A stretch of 64,000 nt of DNA from Bacteroidales bacterium (lineage in GTDB: Bacteria > Bacteroidota > Bacteroidia > Bacteroidales > VadinHA17). Both the position numbers and the translations under genes were made by a program. The first letter of the stretch is position 1, and the number at the start of each line of letters is the position of its first letter. The notes under the pieces were generated by a model. The model was not told the origin of the DNA and ran no database searches. It saw nothing but the letters and a program-made list of their open reading frames with translations. This document shows, in pieces, positions 36,767 to 61,525 of this stretch. The stretch covers positions 1-64,000 of the forward strand of contig PLNT01000017.1 in assembly GCA_003141895.1 (NCBI GenBank), written 5' to 3'.

Positions 36767-36885
36767 AAGAGGTGAGAGATGAGAGGTGAGAATTGAGATA
36801 TGAGAGATGAGAATTGAGAGGTGAGAGATGAGAGGTGAGATGTAAGAGTCTCATTTCTCATCGCTTATTTCTCATATCTCATTTA
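36767..36885. repeat. 17-unit degenerate heptamer array, abuts S23 pseudogene
   Basis: Seventeen consecutive 7-base units with no slip. Twelve purine-rich units (GAGAGAT, GAGAGGT, GAGAATT, GAGATAT and similar) pass into five pyrimidine-rich units (TCATTTC, TCATATC). The stop codon of the S23 pseudogene (36883-36885) is inside the final unit. The two halves are complementary and could fold into a long imperfect hairpin. The array lies directly upstream of wza. Confidence 0.85.
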
Positions 36886-37345
36886 ACTGCACCATTTGTC
36901 AGGATTATTTATCATAGAAATTAACATTTTTCGTACTTCATCATATCTGCTCATTAAGTCTGAGTGAACGGATTCAGTTATATATTTTGAAGCTTCTGAA
37001 TAATCGAGCCACCCTGTGAAATATTAAAAACTGCAAGAAAATGTTTTTTATTGAAGAGTTCTTAGTGTGAAACTTAAGATTCTAAATGAGTGTATTTCAC
37101 AGGGCTGTTTCATATTCTTCTCCCAAAGAATCGGTTAATTTACTTATGAACGATTTAACGTAGCGTCGTTTTGCCCAGGACTCTGCCATACAGGACGTAA
37201 CTGATTTTGATGATCTTCTTATTTGATCAGTGAGTGAATACTTTTCTTCTTTAGGATAGCTTTTTGTTATTTCGAATATATCCATTGCTAACTTAAATGC
37301 TTTCTGATATACGATCAGATCTTTAAAACTGTTTATCTGAGTCAT
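36883..37345 (-). pseudogene. Four-helix-bundle S23 (23S rRNA IVS-type) protein gene, interrupted
   Basis: The ATG at 37345 gives 82 residues (FKDLIVYQKAFKLAMDIFEI, RRSSKSVTSCMAESWAKRR, ending GEEYETAL) that stop at 37097, in mid-family. The missing C-terminal part is found 83 bases further on in another frame: WLDYSEASKYITESVHSDLM through to NNPDKWCS and a TAA at 36883. Between them is a 93-base segment (37012-37104) with perfect 12-base inverted ends, which brings in the stop. Joined, the parts give the usual length of about 120 residues. S23 proteins are Avd-like helical bundles of uncertain function, first known from 23S rRNA intervening sequences. Confidence 0.85.
37012..37104. mobile_element. 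93-bp MITE-like insertion with 12-bp terminal inverted repeats
   Basis: CCCTGTGAAATA at 37012-37023 and TATTTCACAGGG at 37093-37104 are perfect inverted copies, with 69 A/T-rich bases between. The segment splits an S23 gene whose two halves are both recognisable, so it was inserted rather than inherited. No flanking target duplication is clear; two codons of the gene may have been lost. No second copy was noticed in the window. Confidence 0.65.
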
Positions 37346-38069: not shown

Positions 38070-38132
38070 GAGGTTGGAGGTGAGTATTTCGAGGTGAGAG
38101 ACTCATATCTCATTTCTCATTTCTCACTTCTT
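38070..38132. repeat. Degenerate heptamer array between ORF6N and an HTH gene
   Basis: Nine 7-base units in register: GAGGTGA occurs at 38077 and 38091, then ATATCTC, ATTTCTC, ATTTCTC and ACTTCTT. Purine units change to pyrimidine units midway, as in the array at 36767-36885, of which it looks like a diverged relative. The HTH gene's TGA stop (38124-38126) falls inside it. Confidence 0.75.
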
Positions 38133-40097: not shown

Positions 40098-40146
40098 AAG
40101 CAAAGGAGAAAGTGAAAAGGAGAAAGTAGAAAGTAAAGACAATTAA
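40098..40146. repeat. Heptamer array, left flank of an S23 gene
   Basis: Seven units of 7 bases in register; GGAGAAA at 40105 and 40119 alternates with GTGAAAA, GTAGAAA and GTAAAGA. The S23 stop codon (40143-40145) lies in the last unit. On the complementary strand the units match those of the array at 40520-40561, so the two flank the gene as inverted repeats. Confidence 0.85.
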
Positions 40147-40493
40147 TTTCTTGGAGCTACTTTTACAGTAATTGAACCCAGAATATTTTTAAGTTCAAAA
40201 CTTTCCTTTTCCAGTCTTTCAATTTCTGTGTTTTTAGAATATAATTCCCGCAAAATCCTTAACCAATAATTTGATTCTCGCATTTCCTTTAAAGATATAC
40301 CAACTTTATTGCTAAAATCAGGTTTTGATACGGCCCCTTGAGCTTCCTCGTAATTAGCACCAGAAGATGTGGATGATTTTATGAGCTGAGGCTTTATAAT
40401 AAGTAATTCTGAATAACCCTTAAAATTCCGAAGCATTTTAATGACATCAATCGCAAATCGGAATAACCTTTTCTGCAAATCATTTTCATTCAT
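40143..40493 (-). CDS. Four-helix-bundle S23 protein
   Basis: 116 residues: LFRFAIDVIKMLRNF, LIKSSTSSGANYEEAQGA, FSNKVGISLKEMRESNYWLRIL. This is the S23 / Avd-like helical bundle, of full length (about 115-120 residues). S23 proteins were first seen as open reading frames in 23S rRNA intervening sequences and resemble the Avd accessory protein of diversity-generating retroelements; they form pentameric barrels and may bind nucleic acid. Function is not established. The gene is bracketed by inverted heptamer arrays (40098-40146 and 40520-40561). Confidence 0.9.
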   Translation of the reverse strand: MNENDLQKRLFRFAIDVIKMLRNFKGYSELLIIKPQLIKSSTSSGANYEEAQGAVSKPDFSNKVGISLKEMRESNYWLRILRELYSKNTEIERLEKESFELKNILGSITVKVAPRN

Positions 40494-40519
40494 TATCTTA
40501 GTTTTTTGGTTAAATTTTC

Positions 40520-40561
40520 TTGCTACTTTCTCCTTTCAACTTTCAACTTTCAACTTTCTCC
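40520..40561. repeat. Heptamer array, right flank of an S23 gene
   Basis: Six units of 7 bases in register: TTGCTAC, TTTCTCC, three exact TTTCAAC, TTTCTCC. Reverse complement of the same motif family as 40098-40146 (GGAGAAA). It lies 26 bases upstream of the S23 start codon. Confidence 0.85.
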
Positions 40562-40682
40562 TTGTCCCCCGGGCATGCTTTCGCCCCGTCAGTCACATGG
40601 TGAAATGTGCCTAACAAGGCCTTGTATTCTGTGTTTGCAGTCATTTCATGGGTGTTATGAAATAACTGACTTTCCAACTATT

Positions 40683-40805
40683 TAAACCCACCCCTAACCC
40701 CTTCAGGGAGGGGAATTCACTTACCTAATCTTCTTCATTCTTTCCTGTGCTCTGTGCTTTTTTCTCCTAAAACCCACCCCTATCCCCTCCAGGGAGGGGA
40801 ATTCA
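40683..40805. repeat. Two direct copies of a GC-rich palindromic element
   Basis: A unit starting AACCCACCCCTA and ending GGGAGGGGAATTCA occurs at 40683-40716 and again at 40770-40805; a third relative is at 43265-43303. Each contains a CCCCT/AGGGG hairpin. They resemble single ends of the palindrome-bounded elements described at 53477 and 57063. The rest of 40562-40810 holds no gene. Confidence 0.65.
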
Positions 40806-43150: not shown

Positions 43151-43213
43151 AAATAAGATAAAAGATAAAAGGAAAAAGACAAAAGTAGGAACGGGATACG
43201 AGATACAAGTTAC
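43151..43213. repeat. Heptamer array, left member of a gene-free inverted pair
   Basis: Nine 7-base units: AAATAAG, ATAAAAG twice, GAAAAAG, ACAAAAG, TAGGAAC, GGGATAC, GAGATAC, AAGTTAC. The register holds while the motif drifts from AAAAG to GATAC. Confidence 0.75.
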
Positions 43214-43320
43214 GTGGGGTGTTGGGCAGCAATATAAGATCATCCTTCACGATCTTTTGTCTTGAAAAAACCCACCCCTAACCCCTCCAAGGAGGGGAAT
43301 AATTCAGGCTCCTTCATCAC

Positions 43321-43348
43321 TTTAATCTTTTTACTTTTGTCTTTTGTC
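43321..43348. repeat. Heptamer array, right member of a gene-free inverted pair
   Basis: Four 7-base units: TTTAATC, TTTTTAC and TTTTGTC twice. They are complementary to units of the array at 43151-43213. The 107 bases between hold no gene, only a GC palindrome (43265-43303). Confidence 0.7.
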
Positions 43349-43372
43349 TTCCATATTTATTAAAATTGCAGA

Positions 43373-47183: not shown

Positions 47184-47189
47184 AGAAAA

Positions 47190-47273
47190 GGCGGCAGGCA
47201 TCAGGCATCAGGCGGCGGGCGCTTAGTGCCGGAAAAACTGCCTGATCCTGTAGCCTGTAGCCTAACGCCTTAT
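47190..47273. repeat. Heptamer array, left flank of an S23 gene
   Basis: Twelve 7-base units in unbroken register: GGCGGCA, GGCATCA twice, GGCGGCG, GGCGCTT, AGTGCCG, GAAAAAC, TGCCTGA, TCCTGTA, GCCTGTA, GCCTAAC, GCCTTAT. The S23 stop codon (47270-47272) is in the final unit. The first half (GGC units) and second half (GCC units) are complementary. Confidence 0.88.
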
Positions 47274-47623
47274 TTCGATCTGTGTTTTATTAAAGCGGTA
47301 AGCATTGCACTTATTTTGTCACAATCCTTGTCGAATGTTTCAAGCTCCTGATTAGTAATATATCCTATCTCTGAAGAAATTATTAGTTGCGTTCCCAGTT
47401 CTGCAGTTGACCCCCGGGCTATATAGAAGTGCCGTATGCTCTGTTTGTCTGTATCAAGATTATCCCCTTCAGCAATATTTGAAGGTATGCTAATAGCCGA
47501 TCTTTGAATTTGATCTCTCAATCCAAAATCTTTTGAAAAAGTTGGTGACTGAGTAAGTTTGTAAATTCTTACTGCCAGTTCTTTGGCAAGTTGCCAAACA
47601 CGAAGTTTTTGAAAATTTCCCAT
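47270..47623 (-). CDS. Four-helix-bundle S23 protein
   Basis: 117 residues: FQKLRVWQLAKELAVRIYKLTQ, LRDQIQRSAISIPSNIAEGDN, FYIARGSTAELGTQLIISSEIGYI. This is a textbook S23/Avd-like bundle at full length, and the DQIQRSAISIPSNIAEG motif is conserved. The amino acid sequence differs greatly from the S23 genes at 36883 and 40143, so it was not made by recent local duplication. It is enclosed by heptamer arrays whose motif (GGCxTCx) is unlike those at the other two loci. No 23S rRNA is near. Confidence 0.92.
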   Translation of the reverse strand: MGNFQKLRVWQLAKELAVRIYKLTQSPTFSKDFGLRDQIQRSAISIPSNIAEGDNLDTDKQSIRHFYIARGSTAELGTQLIISSEIGYITNQELETFDKDCDKISAMLTALIKHRSK

Positions 47624-47717
47624 AATACAGCGATTTTAGTTAATGAAATATTTATTATTGTAATTCCACATACAATAATCAATCACAATTTAAGAAATAT
47701 TTCTGAATAGAATCTTT

Positions 47718-47773
47718 GCCAGAAACCTGACAATAGTTGCCCGAAGCCTGACGCCTCACGCCCGATGCCATTT
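47718..47773. repeat. Heptamer array, right flank of an S23 gene
   Basis: Eight 7-base units in register, most beginning GCC: GCCAGAA, ACCTGAC, AATAGTT, GCCCGAA, GCCTGAC, GCCTCAC, GCCCGAT, GCCATTT. It is inverted with respect to the GGC units at 47190-47217. A gap of 94 A/T-rich bases separates it from the S23 start codon. Confidence 0.85.
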
Positions 47774-48405: not shown

Positions 48406-48464
48406 ATAAAAATCCGGTACGCGAGGGAAGGTGCGAGGAGAGACTTAAAATCCTATTACATCAG

Positions 48465-48641
48465 GGTCATTGCGAGCCTGACAAAGGAAGGCGAAGCAAT
48501 CTCCCGCAACAACAATAATTTAGCTTGCTTCGTTTTGCATGTAAGGGATTGCTTCGTCTCCGCCAACCGGCGGATCCTCGCAATGACCATTGACGTAATT
48601 GGAATCAGTTTAGCCCCCCATTTGGGGGGTTGGGGGGTTGA
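48465..48641. repeat. REP-like units and 73-bp direct repeat, copy 1
   Basis: A GGTCATTGCGAG...GAAGCAATCTCC unit (48465-48504) faces an inverted one (48545-48588). From 48569 to 48641 lies a 73-base sequence that recurs at 52836-52908 with one mismatch; it ends in a CCCCCCATTTGGGGGG palindrome plus TTGGGGGGTTGA. Confidence 0.85.
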
Positions 48642-61279: not shown

Positions 61280-61503
61280 GGGGATTGCTTCGCTTCGCTC
61301 GCAATGACCGGTAATTTGATAATGTACACCGTCATTGCGAGTCCGACGCAGGAGGGCGAAGCAATCCCAGACTCCCATAACAAATTCAACTCACCGTCAT
61401 TGCGAGCCTGACGCAGGAGGGCGAAGCAATCCCAGACTCAAATAACAAATTCAACTCACCGTCATTGCGAGCCTGACGCAGGAGGGCGAAGCAATCCCAG
61501 ACC
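61280..61503. repeat. REP-like array: one inverted unit and three direct units at exact 65-bp period
   Basis: Inverted unit 61280-61310; direct units begin 61329, 61394 and 61459, each GTCATTGCGAGnCnGACGCAGGAGG...GCAATCCCAGAC with an ACAAATTCAACTCACC linker. The three copies are almost identical, indicating recent amplification. It may also act as the 3' end signal of ileS. Confidence 0.88.
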
Positions 61504-61525
61504 CCATAAACTGAATTCATTTTCC

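Follow-up and report, generated by a model that had tools for sequence, protein, structure and literature searches.

S23 genes enclosed by inverted arrays of short tandem units form a cassette related to rRNA intervening sequences

How does a small gene come to lie between two inverted tandem arrays that hold a 7-base register while most of their units differ? A locus in the window, the whole 64-kb stretch of DNA analyzed here, raises this question for a gene of the S23 family. We know of no established role for such "four helix bundle protein" genes, which are common in the phylum of the window, a PF05635 match being present in 193 of 247 sampled genomes. The initial annotation proposed an undescribed S23-plus-heptamer element. 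An S23-plus-array element does exist, but its unit is not always a heptamer. The cassette architecture is real, general, related to rRNA intervening sequences (IVS) and, within the literature searched, undescribed; that literature, which mostly excluded subscription papers and preprints, yielded no description of arrays beside stand-alone S23 genes. If cassettes with spaced arms are where S23 genes generally reside, they would be one of the more widely distributed kinds of small mobile element in bacteria, sitting between such genes as groES and groEL or nuoC and nuoD.

The window locus and its genome

The S23 protein of the window locus passes the curated cut-offs of PF05635 and TIGR02436 in profile searches, and S23 relatives in the PDB are 2gsc and 2rld. 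Its gene is the sole ORF of at least 50 aa between the arms (Table 1), and an Rfam scan of the 64-kb window detected no rRNA.

Table 1. Coordinates of the S23 genes, arms and arrays of the window
Feature	Position	Strand	Basis
S23 / 23S_rRNA_IVP gene (four helix bundle protein, 117 aa)	47270..47623	-	PF05635 E 6.4e-35; TIGR02436 122.7 bits; 2gsc E 5.6e-17
Upstream arm, G-rich GGCnTCn heptamers read on the gene strand	47718..47773	.	lag-7 segment 47739-47769, score 12
Outer downstream arm, rich in C when read on the gene strand and reverse complementary to the upstream one	47189..47221	.	lag-7 segment score 16
Inner downstream array, overlapping the stop codon and directly after it	47236..47273	.	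segment 47247-47270, score 11
Leader motif TCGCTGTATT directly 5′ of the ATG	47624..47633	-	C[GT][CT]TG core in clade
Second S23 gene of the window	40143..40493	-	ORF and profile match
Arm of second S23, AAAGGAG / AAAGTAG heptamers	40102..40135	.	inverted pair score 19.5
Other arm of second S23, CTTTCAA heptamers	40519..40563	.	lag-7 array
Third S23 copy, broken (1 TGA and 1 TAG in the matched stretch)	37055..37324	-	profile match
Arrays of third S23 copy, GAGANNT then TCTCATT heptamers, a hairpin on their own	36768..36882	.	array scan
TCTCATT heptamer array on the opposite side of the third S23 copy, separated from it by an ORF6N gene	38102..38131	.	array scan
Inverted heptamer arrays AAAAGATA / CTTTTGTC, 107 bp apart, no ORF of 50 aa between	43155..43350	.	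inverted score 18.5

From position 47190, the left stretch reads, in successive heptamers, GGCGGCA, GGCATCA, GGCATCA, GGCGGCG, GGCGCTT, AGTGCCG, GAAAAAC, TGCCTGA, TCCTGTA, GCCTGTA, GCCTAAC and GCCTTAT. One 7-base register runs through it as first described, but these are not 12 GGC units: about 4.5 GGC units are followed by a break and by about 5 units of the opposite sense (GCCTGTA type). The S23 stop codon does lie inside this array, at its inner end. On the right, the 8 reported heptamers are present but only about 6 of them fit. Lag-7 identity is 0.53 in either stretch. The inner and outer downstream arrays run in opposite senses, so that the 3′ side forms a hairpin of its own. The outer array and the upstream segment (47189..47221 / 47739-47769) form an inverted pair with a score of 11.5, a modest stem-forming repeat. 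By eye, arrays of both senses on one or both sides of S23 also occur at three groES-groEL loci (L286, L292 and L296), suggesting whole-arm duplication or inversion.

Members of the clade of the window S23 have a long leader with a TCGCTG-like motif 5′ of the ATG; 25 of the 30 loci have its C[GT][CT]TG core at most 22 nt from the ATG end. This long leader may carry its own promoter.

Two further S23 loci of the window had been said to show heptamer arrays of other unit sequences, and both indeed have inverted 7-mers of their own. At the broken copy, the right array is displaced by some 0.8 kb, past an ORF6N gene. This copy also appears, by eye, to be split at 37010-37107 by a short segment with an inverted repeat, CACCCTGTGAAATA ... 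TATTTCACAGGGCTG. The gene-less arrays at 43155..43350 are possibly an arm-only remnant. Over the whole window, 12 lag-7 segments score at least 11, against 0.48 expected from an order-2 Markov model (60 simulations, none above 4); lag 8 yields 7 segments against 0.58, and the remaining lags from 4 to 12 yield 0 to 2 against 0.5 to 0.8. Other repeats are a 65-bp unit (TCATTGCGAGCCTGACGCAGGAGGGCGAAGCAATC type) present 2.8 times at 61327-61509, with similar sequence seen by eye around 48460-48590, and a dispersed repeat of CCCACCCCTAACCCCTCCAGGGAGGGGAATT type with three copies seen by eye (around 40687-40719, 40772-40805 and 43269-43302).

The genome of the window contains six S23 genes as found by our search, all surrounded by inverted short-unit arrays, of 7-mers at four genes, 6-mers at one and 9-mers at one. 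The three genes beyond the window have arms of 7, 6 and 9, so that an exact period of 7 is not general even here. At five of the six, each side reaches a segment score of 11. The right array of the sixth (L005) was recognized by eye, and its two arms score 17 against each other. In 464 kb of this genome, 10 intergenic arrays lie within 300 bp of five S23 genes and 32 elsewhere, i.e., 7.97 versus 0.587 arrays per kb of intergenic DNA, a 13.6-fold difference. Arrays are thus not equally common away from S23 genes in this genome. Neither are they exclusive to them, given the 32 solo arrays and the inverted arms of another kind found at GxxExxY genes (see below), and an exclusive S23-array link was therefore discarded. 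Elsewhere in the same genome (G000:C23:268126-271167, in L079), direct octamer arrays of GTTATGGC type lie between AbiEii-like, HEPN and nucleotidyltransferase genes, as bounds of toxin-antitoxin-like modules.

Arrays around S23 genes and control genes

We collected S23 loci from the family of the window genome, its phylum, the clade of the window S23 protein, and a one-genome-per-species collection (84,980 species). All were the best-scoring matches rather than a random draw, and the species collection contributed the best 80 of 521 confirmed loci. After removal of 7 of the 30 loci of the window-S23 (L001) clade, which were duplicates or cut, the merged set comprised 168 loci. Since S23 loci often share a site or a clade, the counts below are not independent. 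Control windows for the lag-7, lag-8 and any-lag comparisons consist mostly of coding DNA, and the intergenic comparison is that of the window genome.

An array is present on at least one side in 159 of the 168 loci, from many phyla, and on both sides in 124; nine loci have none. With any lag from 5 to 11 considered, 283 of 336 S23 flanks are array positive, against 56 of 615 mostly coding control windows. The association put forward for the window is hence strong across phyla. The period is the same on both sides in 112 of the 124 two-array loci, against a shuffled mean of 51. It does not have a fixed value of 7 as had been supposed: among 152 loci, it is 7 in 81, 8 in 55 and 9 in 11, the longer periods being common in other S23 clades, which rules out 7 as a universal constant.

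The first 65 loci gave a similar picture by single lags. A lag-7 score of at least 10 was reached by 50% of 128 S23 flanks and 3% of 237 mostly coding control windows of the same loci. Lags 8 and 9 were also raised (18% versus 1.7% and 12.5% versus 1.3%), as were the doubles of these lags, and the remaining lags from 4 to 13 stayed at or below 5.5%. Among the best 80 of 521 loci, period 8 was found in 53% of 92 Bacteroidota flanks against 1.7% of 348 windows, a dominance due in part to the many Flavobacterium copies at one common site, and period 7 in 29% against 1.4%. In the 67 flanks from other groups, period 7 reached 70%, against 8% of 237 windows.

Within a locus, the left and right arms are reverse complementary in 33 of 63 cases in the first set, compared with 2 of 630 permuted pairs, and in 49 of 80 among the best 80 of 521 loci, compared with 26 of 800. 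In the latter set, arms matching with a score of at least 16 were found in Acidobacteriales (1/2), Omnitrophota (5/6), Atribacteria (3/3), candidate-phyla-radiation bacteria (6/9), Planctomycetes (3/3) and Ignavibacteria (3/4), and in single loci of Verrucomicrobiales, Clostridia, Campylobacterales and Schekmanbacteria.

Three other gene families served for comparison. Of 30 GxxExxY (PF13366) loci, L230 was dropped, leaving 29, and three of 30 Y1_Tnp loci (L261-L263) were dropped, leaving 27. GxxExxY genes resemble the S23 cassette in being small single genes between same-strand neighbors (22 of 29 in sense with both) with locus-matched inverted arms (15 of 29, versus 2 of 290). They differ from it in that the protein is unrelated, none of 58 flanks reaches score 10 at lag 7, and the loosely spaced units often contain the word CACAGAG (1.81 per kb, versus 0.17 per kb in S23 flanks). 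Score 10 is reached at lags 8, 9 and 10 by about 10% of GxxExxY flanks each. These loci (L204-L233) have the appearance of a second, unrelated cassette family of similar layout, which suggests a general kind of operon-dwelling cassette. Y1_Tnp genes have inverted arms in 11 of 27 loci (versus 3 of 270), and all of their 53 flanks stay below score 10 at lags 6 to 9. Like the S23 cassette, the REP/REPIN and RAYT (Y1_Tnp) systems, the topic of PMC3116915, combine palindromes with a small nearby gene, but the 27 Y1_Tnp loci lack arrays.

The third family was Avd of diversity-generating retroelements, which the S23 proteins had been said to resemble. There is a weak, distant kinship in sequence: two of five S23 proteins match the Avd profile NF033474 below its cut-off of 80 (L060, 28.6 bits; L063, 36.4 bits), and no match is listed for L001, L005 and L006. 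The likeness does not extend to the arms, as none of 12 Avd-like loci has complementary arms (best score, 10.5), and the idea of Avd as their carrier found no support in this sample. These 12 remained of 21 loci after exclusion of nine that were fragments, broken, or S23 rather than Avd. Among the 12 upstream flanks, five show repetition at lags of 7 to 9: one reaches score 10 at lag 7 and four do so at lag 8 (one of them also at lag 9). None of the 12 downstream flanks has an array at lags 7 to 9; one reaches score 10 at lag 6.

These data bear on the most mundane reading, i.e., that 7- to 9-bp arrays are ordinary minisatellites that arise anywhere in intergenic DNA and that S23 genes merely settle beside them. 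Heptamer repeats are abundant in bacteria according to PMC4692102, and solo arrays occur in the window genome and in 16 of 58 groES-groEL spacers of a single genus, as counted by a pattern that misses some. However, this reading does not account for the fact that intergenic arrays of the window genome are 13.6 times as dense close to S23 as away from it, for the inversion and matching of the arms within a locus, or for the lack of lag-7 scores of 10 in the 58 GxxExxY and 53 Y1_Tnp flanks. We regard it as largely refuted already and its truth as most improbable.

Placement, gain and loss between host genes

In 115 of the 168 loci, the two neighboring genes are on one strand and the cassette between them has the same orientation. 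Outside the family of the window genome, 94 of 110 are in sense with both neighbors, many of the 94 sharing a site, and 2 are antisense to both. Inside that family, 21 of 58 are in sense with both and 17 antisense to both. The sites, with gene names read from translations, include groES-groEL, nuoC-nuoD, clpP-clpX and a phenylacetate operon. We propose that the cassette would be transcribed together with its host operon, although the 17 antisense cassettes mean that dependence on a host transcript does not fit within the family of the window genome. A role of the arms as bidirectional terminators or attenuators that insulate the S23 gene would agree with the presence of hairpin-forming sequences on both of its sides. 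It is highly unlikely, however, considering that the arms sit between genes such as groES and groEL or nuoC and nuoD and that their length varies widely, upstream arrays having 3.8 to 9.4 units (10th to 90th percentile) and up to 23.

Cassette content varies at a given site. At the phenylacetate site in one genus, five of eight genomes carry one S23 type, two carry another with different arms, and one has neither gene nor array. For groES-groEL, we surveyed 70 of 79 matching genomes of the genus of G303, taken as Flavobacterium because three other genomes of that genus (L038, L045 and L062) share a site and similar flanks with Flavobacterium loci; 58 were parsed by pattern and used for a tree. 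A full cassette is present in 8 of the 70 genomes. In the 58 tree genomes, two spacers have both arms without the gene, one has a solo 3′ arm, 16 have a solo AAGTATT-type array and 31 have none, the pattern missing some. No cassette was found in the 12 remaining spacers (26 to 119 bases), which were read individually.

Sites empty of gene and arrays had been suggested as a check, and one such site can be compared with a filled one. L296, with a cassette, and L297, without, are supported sisters (100/98); their flanks agree at 890 of 898 aligned bases on one side and 880 of 899 on the other, i.e., 98 to 99%, and their spacers measure 521 and 82 bases. The L296 cassette extends from the groES stop codon to about 11 bases 5′ of the groEL start and replaces the spacer of its relative. 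As the whole spacer is replaced, homologous exchange via the flanking genes explains this site without autonomous mobility. Copies do reach new sites in our proposal, and at a given site they would probably spread by homologous recombination via the conserved flanking genes. Loss of the cassette would leave arms or solo arrays behind, and arm-only and solo-arm spacers are thus a plausible origin of the solo arrays. To judge from sequence comparisons, the arms belong to the cassette: they differ with its presence or absence and are similar in related S23 genes at other sites.

Movement at the DNA level deserves consideration here, the arms acting as terminal inverted repeats or foldback hairpins for S23 or for a host recombinase. 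In agreement with a transposon, the arms bound a discrete unit, alignments of copies at different sites span from arm to arm (L174/L178 and L033/L034), and the arm-only groES-groEL spacers L301 and L325 resemble miniature elements. On the other hand, S23 is a helical bundle (2gsc and 2rld relatives) that to our knowledge has no catalytic site. None of five S23 proteins matches a catalytic family in NCBIfam, although a host enzyme could act in trans. In addition, no target-site duplication was seen between L296 and L297, the one close pair, whose empty site has its own different spacer. The sense bias is also unexpected from insertion alone, though selection could produce it. On balance, we find a transposon unlikely.

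Build of the arms and their possible reading

A likeness to IVS, which are also flanked by inverted repeats, had been noted for the window locus. According to PMC4990558, the Coxiella 23S rRNA IVS contains an S23 gene and inverted repeats and is excised by RNase III, which cuts the stem at the first heptamer; two or three GACAGAT heptamers precede the gene, their number varying among strains, and the S23 protein is probably not made from this IVS. A study of rRNA insertions in candidate-phyla-radiation bacteria likewise reports S23 genes in them. The likeness is genuine as to the S23 gene in the loop of an inverted-repeat stem and the tandem heptamers. It fails as to location and detail: unlike the Coxiella IVS, the cassettes lie between protein genes (no rRNA in 20 other S23 loci scanned with Rfam), mostly have arrays on two sides, and have periods of 7 to 9 and clade-specific units. 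The cassette looks like an IVS-like element between protein genes.

In the proposed mechanism, the arms would pair as a stem with the S23 gene in the loop, and RNase III would cut this stem as others have demonstrated for the S23-encoding IVS of Coxiella. Such cutting would let the neighboring host genes tolerate the cassette. By this analogy, stem formation and RNase III processing of the cassettes are likely. Of 40 cassettes, drawn from 115 loci picked for matching arms, 37 have arm-to-arm pairing in the minimum-energy fold, versus 3 of 40 with a swapped arm.

The arms could then be an RNA stem and nothing more, as in a pure IVS model in which any stem serves and the repeats arose by slippage, with nothing that reads them. 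The 37 folds of arm-matched loci, the RNase III cut at the first heptamer of the Coxiella stem (PMC4990558) and the sense placement between same-strand genes all accord with this simpler model. Mismatches between the arms, however, provide no clear excess of G-U compatible changes (275 sense versus 280 antisense compatible, p 0.87), and the 80 best-matched loci no signal of asymmetry either (196 versus 175). The missing wobble excess means that there is no sign of selection on RNA pairing itself. The model also leaves unexplained a positive GC skew in 128 of 141 loci and a period that follows the S23 clade. We therefore doubt that a stem alone suffices, while granting it a real chance.

The relation between period and sequence was examined in pairs of loci at different sites, as judged by flank similarity alone, with loci having a stop or N in the S23 match and too-short flanks removed. 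Arm similarity at score 16 is found in less than 1% of pairs below 50% S23 identity, 12% at 60 to 65%, 53% at 70 to 75%, and three of three above 80%; in the reverse-complement control, no identity class exceeds 1.5%. Sharing of the period extends further, from 40% of 7291 pairs at 30 to 50% identity to 87% of 153 at 60 to 70%, 25 of 25 at 70 to 80% and three of three above. Period sharing outlasts arm similarity as S23 identity falls, showing that the period is kept longer than the sequence, though the pairs are not independent and descent of the arms together with the gene would yield part of this pattern. The original idea of a conserved period and layout without conserved sequence thus survives in a weaker form, as the period outlasts the sequence but takes values of 7, 8 or 9.

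The two arms of a locus also change together. In 19 same-site clusters, the match of an arm to its own partner is better than the cross match in 15, worse in 3 and equal in 1 (Wilcoxon p 0.001); the phenylacetate cluster mixes two S23 types, so an excess is expected there anyway. There is no excess at 90 to 100% S23 identity and a larger one at lower identity. In combination with the missing wobble asymmetry, this joint evolution favors sequence copying from arm to arm, or slippage of both arms together, rather than selection on paired RNA bases. It is compatible with the earlier suggestion of a mechanism that copies or maintains spacing.

Units differ from locus to locus, and a fixed recognition sequence was ruled out between clades, a weak AG core alone recurring. 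Of 141 upstream arrays, 89 have AG at one constant phase in 70% or more of their units, the top value among the 16 dinucleotides; for CT, its complement, the number is 28. In a different set of 141 loci, with aligned arms, GC skew was read along the upstream-arm sense: 128 loci have a positive value, 8 a negative one and 5 a value of zero, and the median is 0.37 against 0.07 and 0.06 in DNA farther out. Taken singly, 125 upstream arms have more G than C and 126 downstream arms more C than G. Because the skew flips in the downstream arm, mutational strand bias does not explain it. The median array has about 5 units, which by itself is no evidence for a pentamer, since the detection threshold drops shorter arrays.

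A protein that reads evenly spaced repeats has a precedent in TRAP, the trp RNA-binding attenuation protein, a ring that reads evenly spaced GAG/UAG triplets in RNA. We claim no homology between S23 and TRAP; the spacing at S23 is 7 to 9 nt and binding by S23 is putative. S23 relatives are pentamers, and the arms may double as multivalent binding sites for an S23 ring. Such binding would explain both the spacing kept while letters drift and the nearly constant upstream position of the G-rich arm. In its most specific form, the pentameric ring would read spacing rather than sequence, its subunits contacting AG-centered units of the G-rich arm as RNA or single-stranded DNA and the geometry of each clade setting a pitch of 7, 8 or 9 nt; the arms would be the code by which a large, so far undescribed class of selfish cassettes living in operons across bacterial phyla is recognized, and decayed arms would account for many bacterial heptamer repeats. 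We put this form forward tentatively, and it may well prove wrong.

The broader explanation sees in the window locus one representative of a widespread cassette with a single gene, S23, enclosed by inverted arms that typically have about 5 tandem units of 7 to 9 bp each. As a whole, with transcription, stem cutting, arm binding and spread included, it seems to us probable. If S23 genes do generally live in such cassettes, the old question of the role of S23 and of rRNA IVS becomes testable, through binding of the ring to its own arms and a period that matches the protein clade. At one locus (L021), the S23 frame continues upstream through a translated array with repeated KELKELKET / FKPFQLF, giving an open frame of 281 aa.
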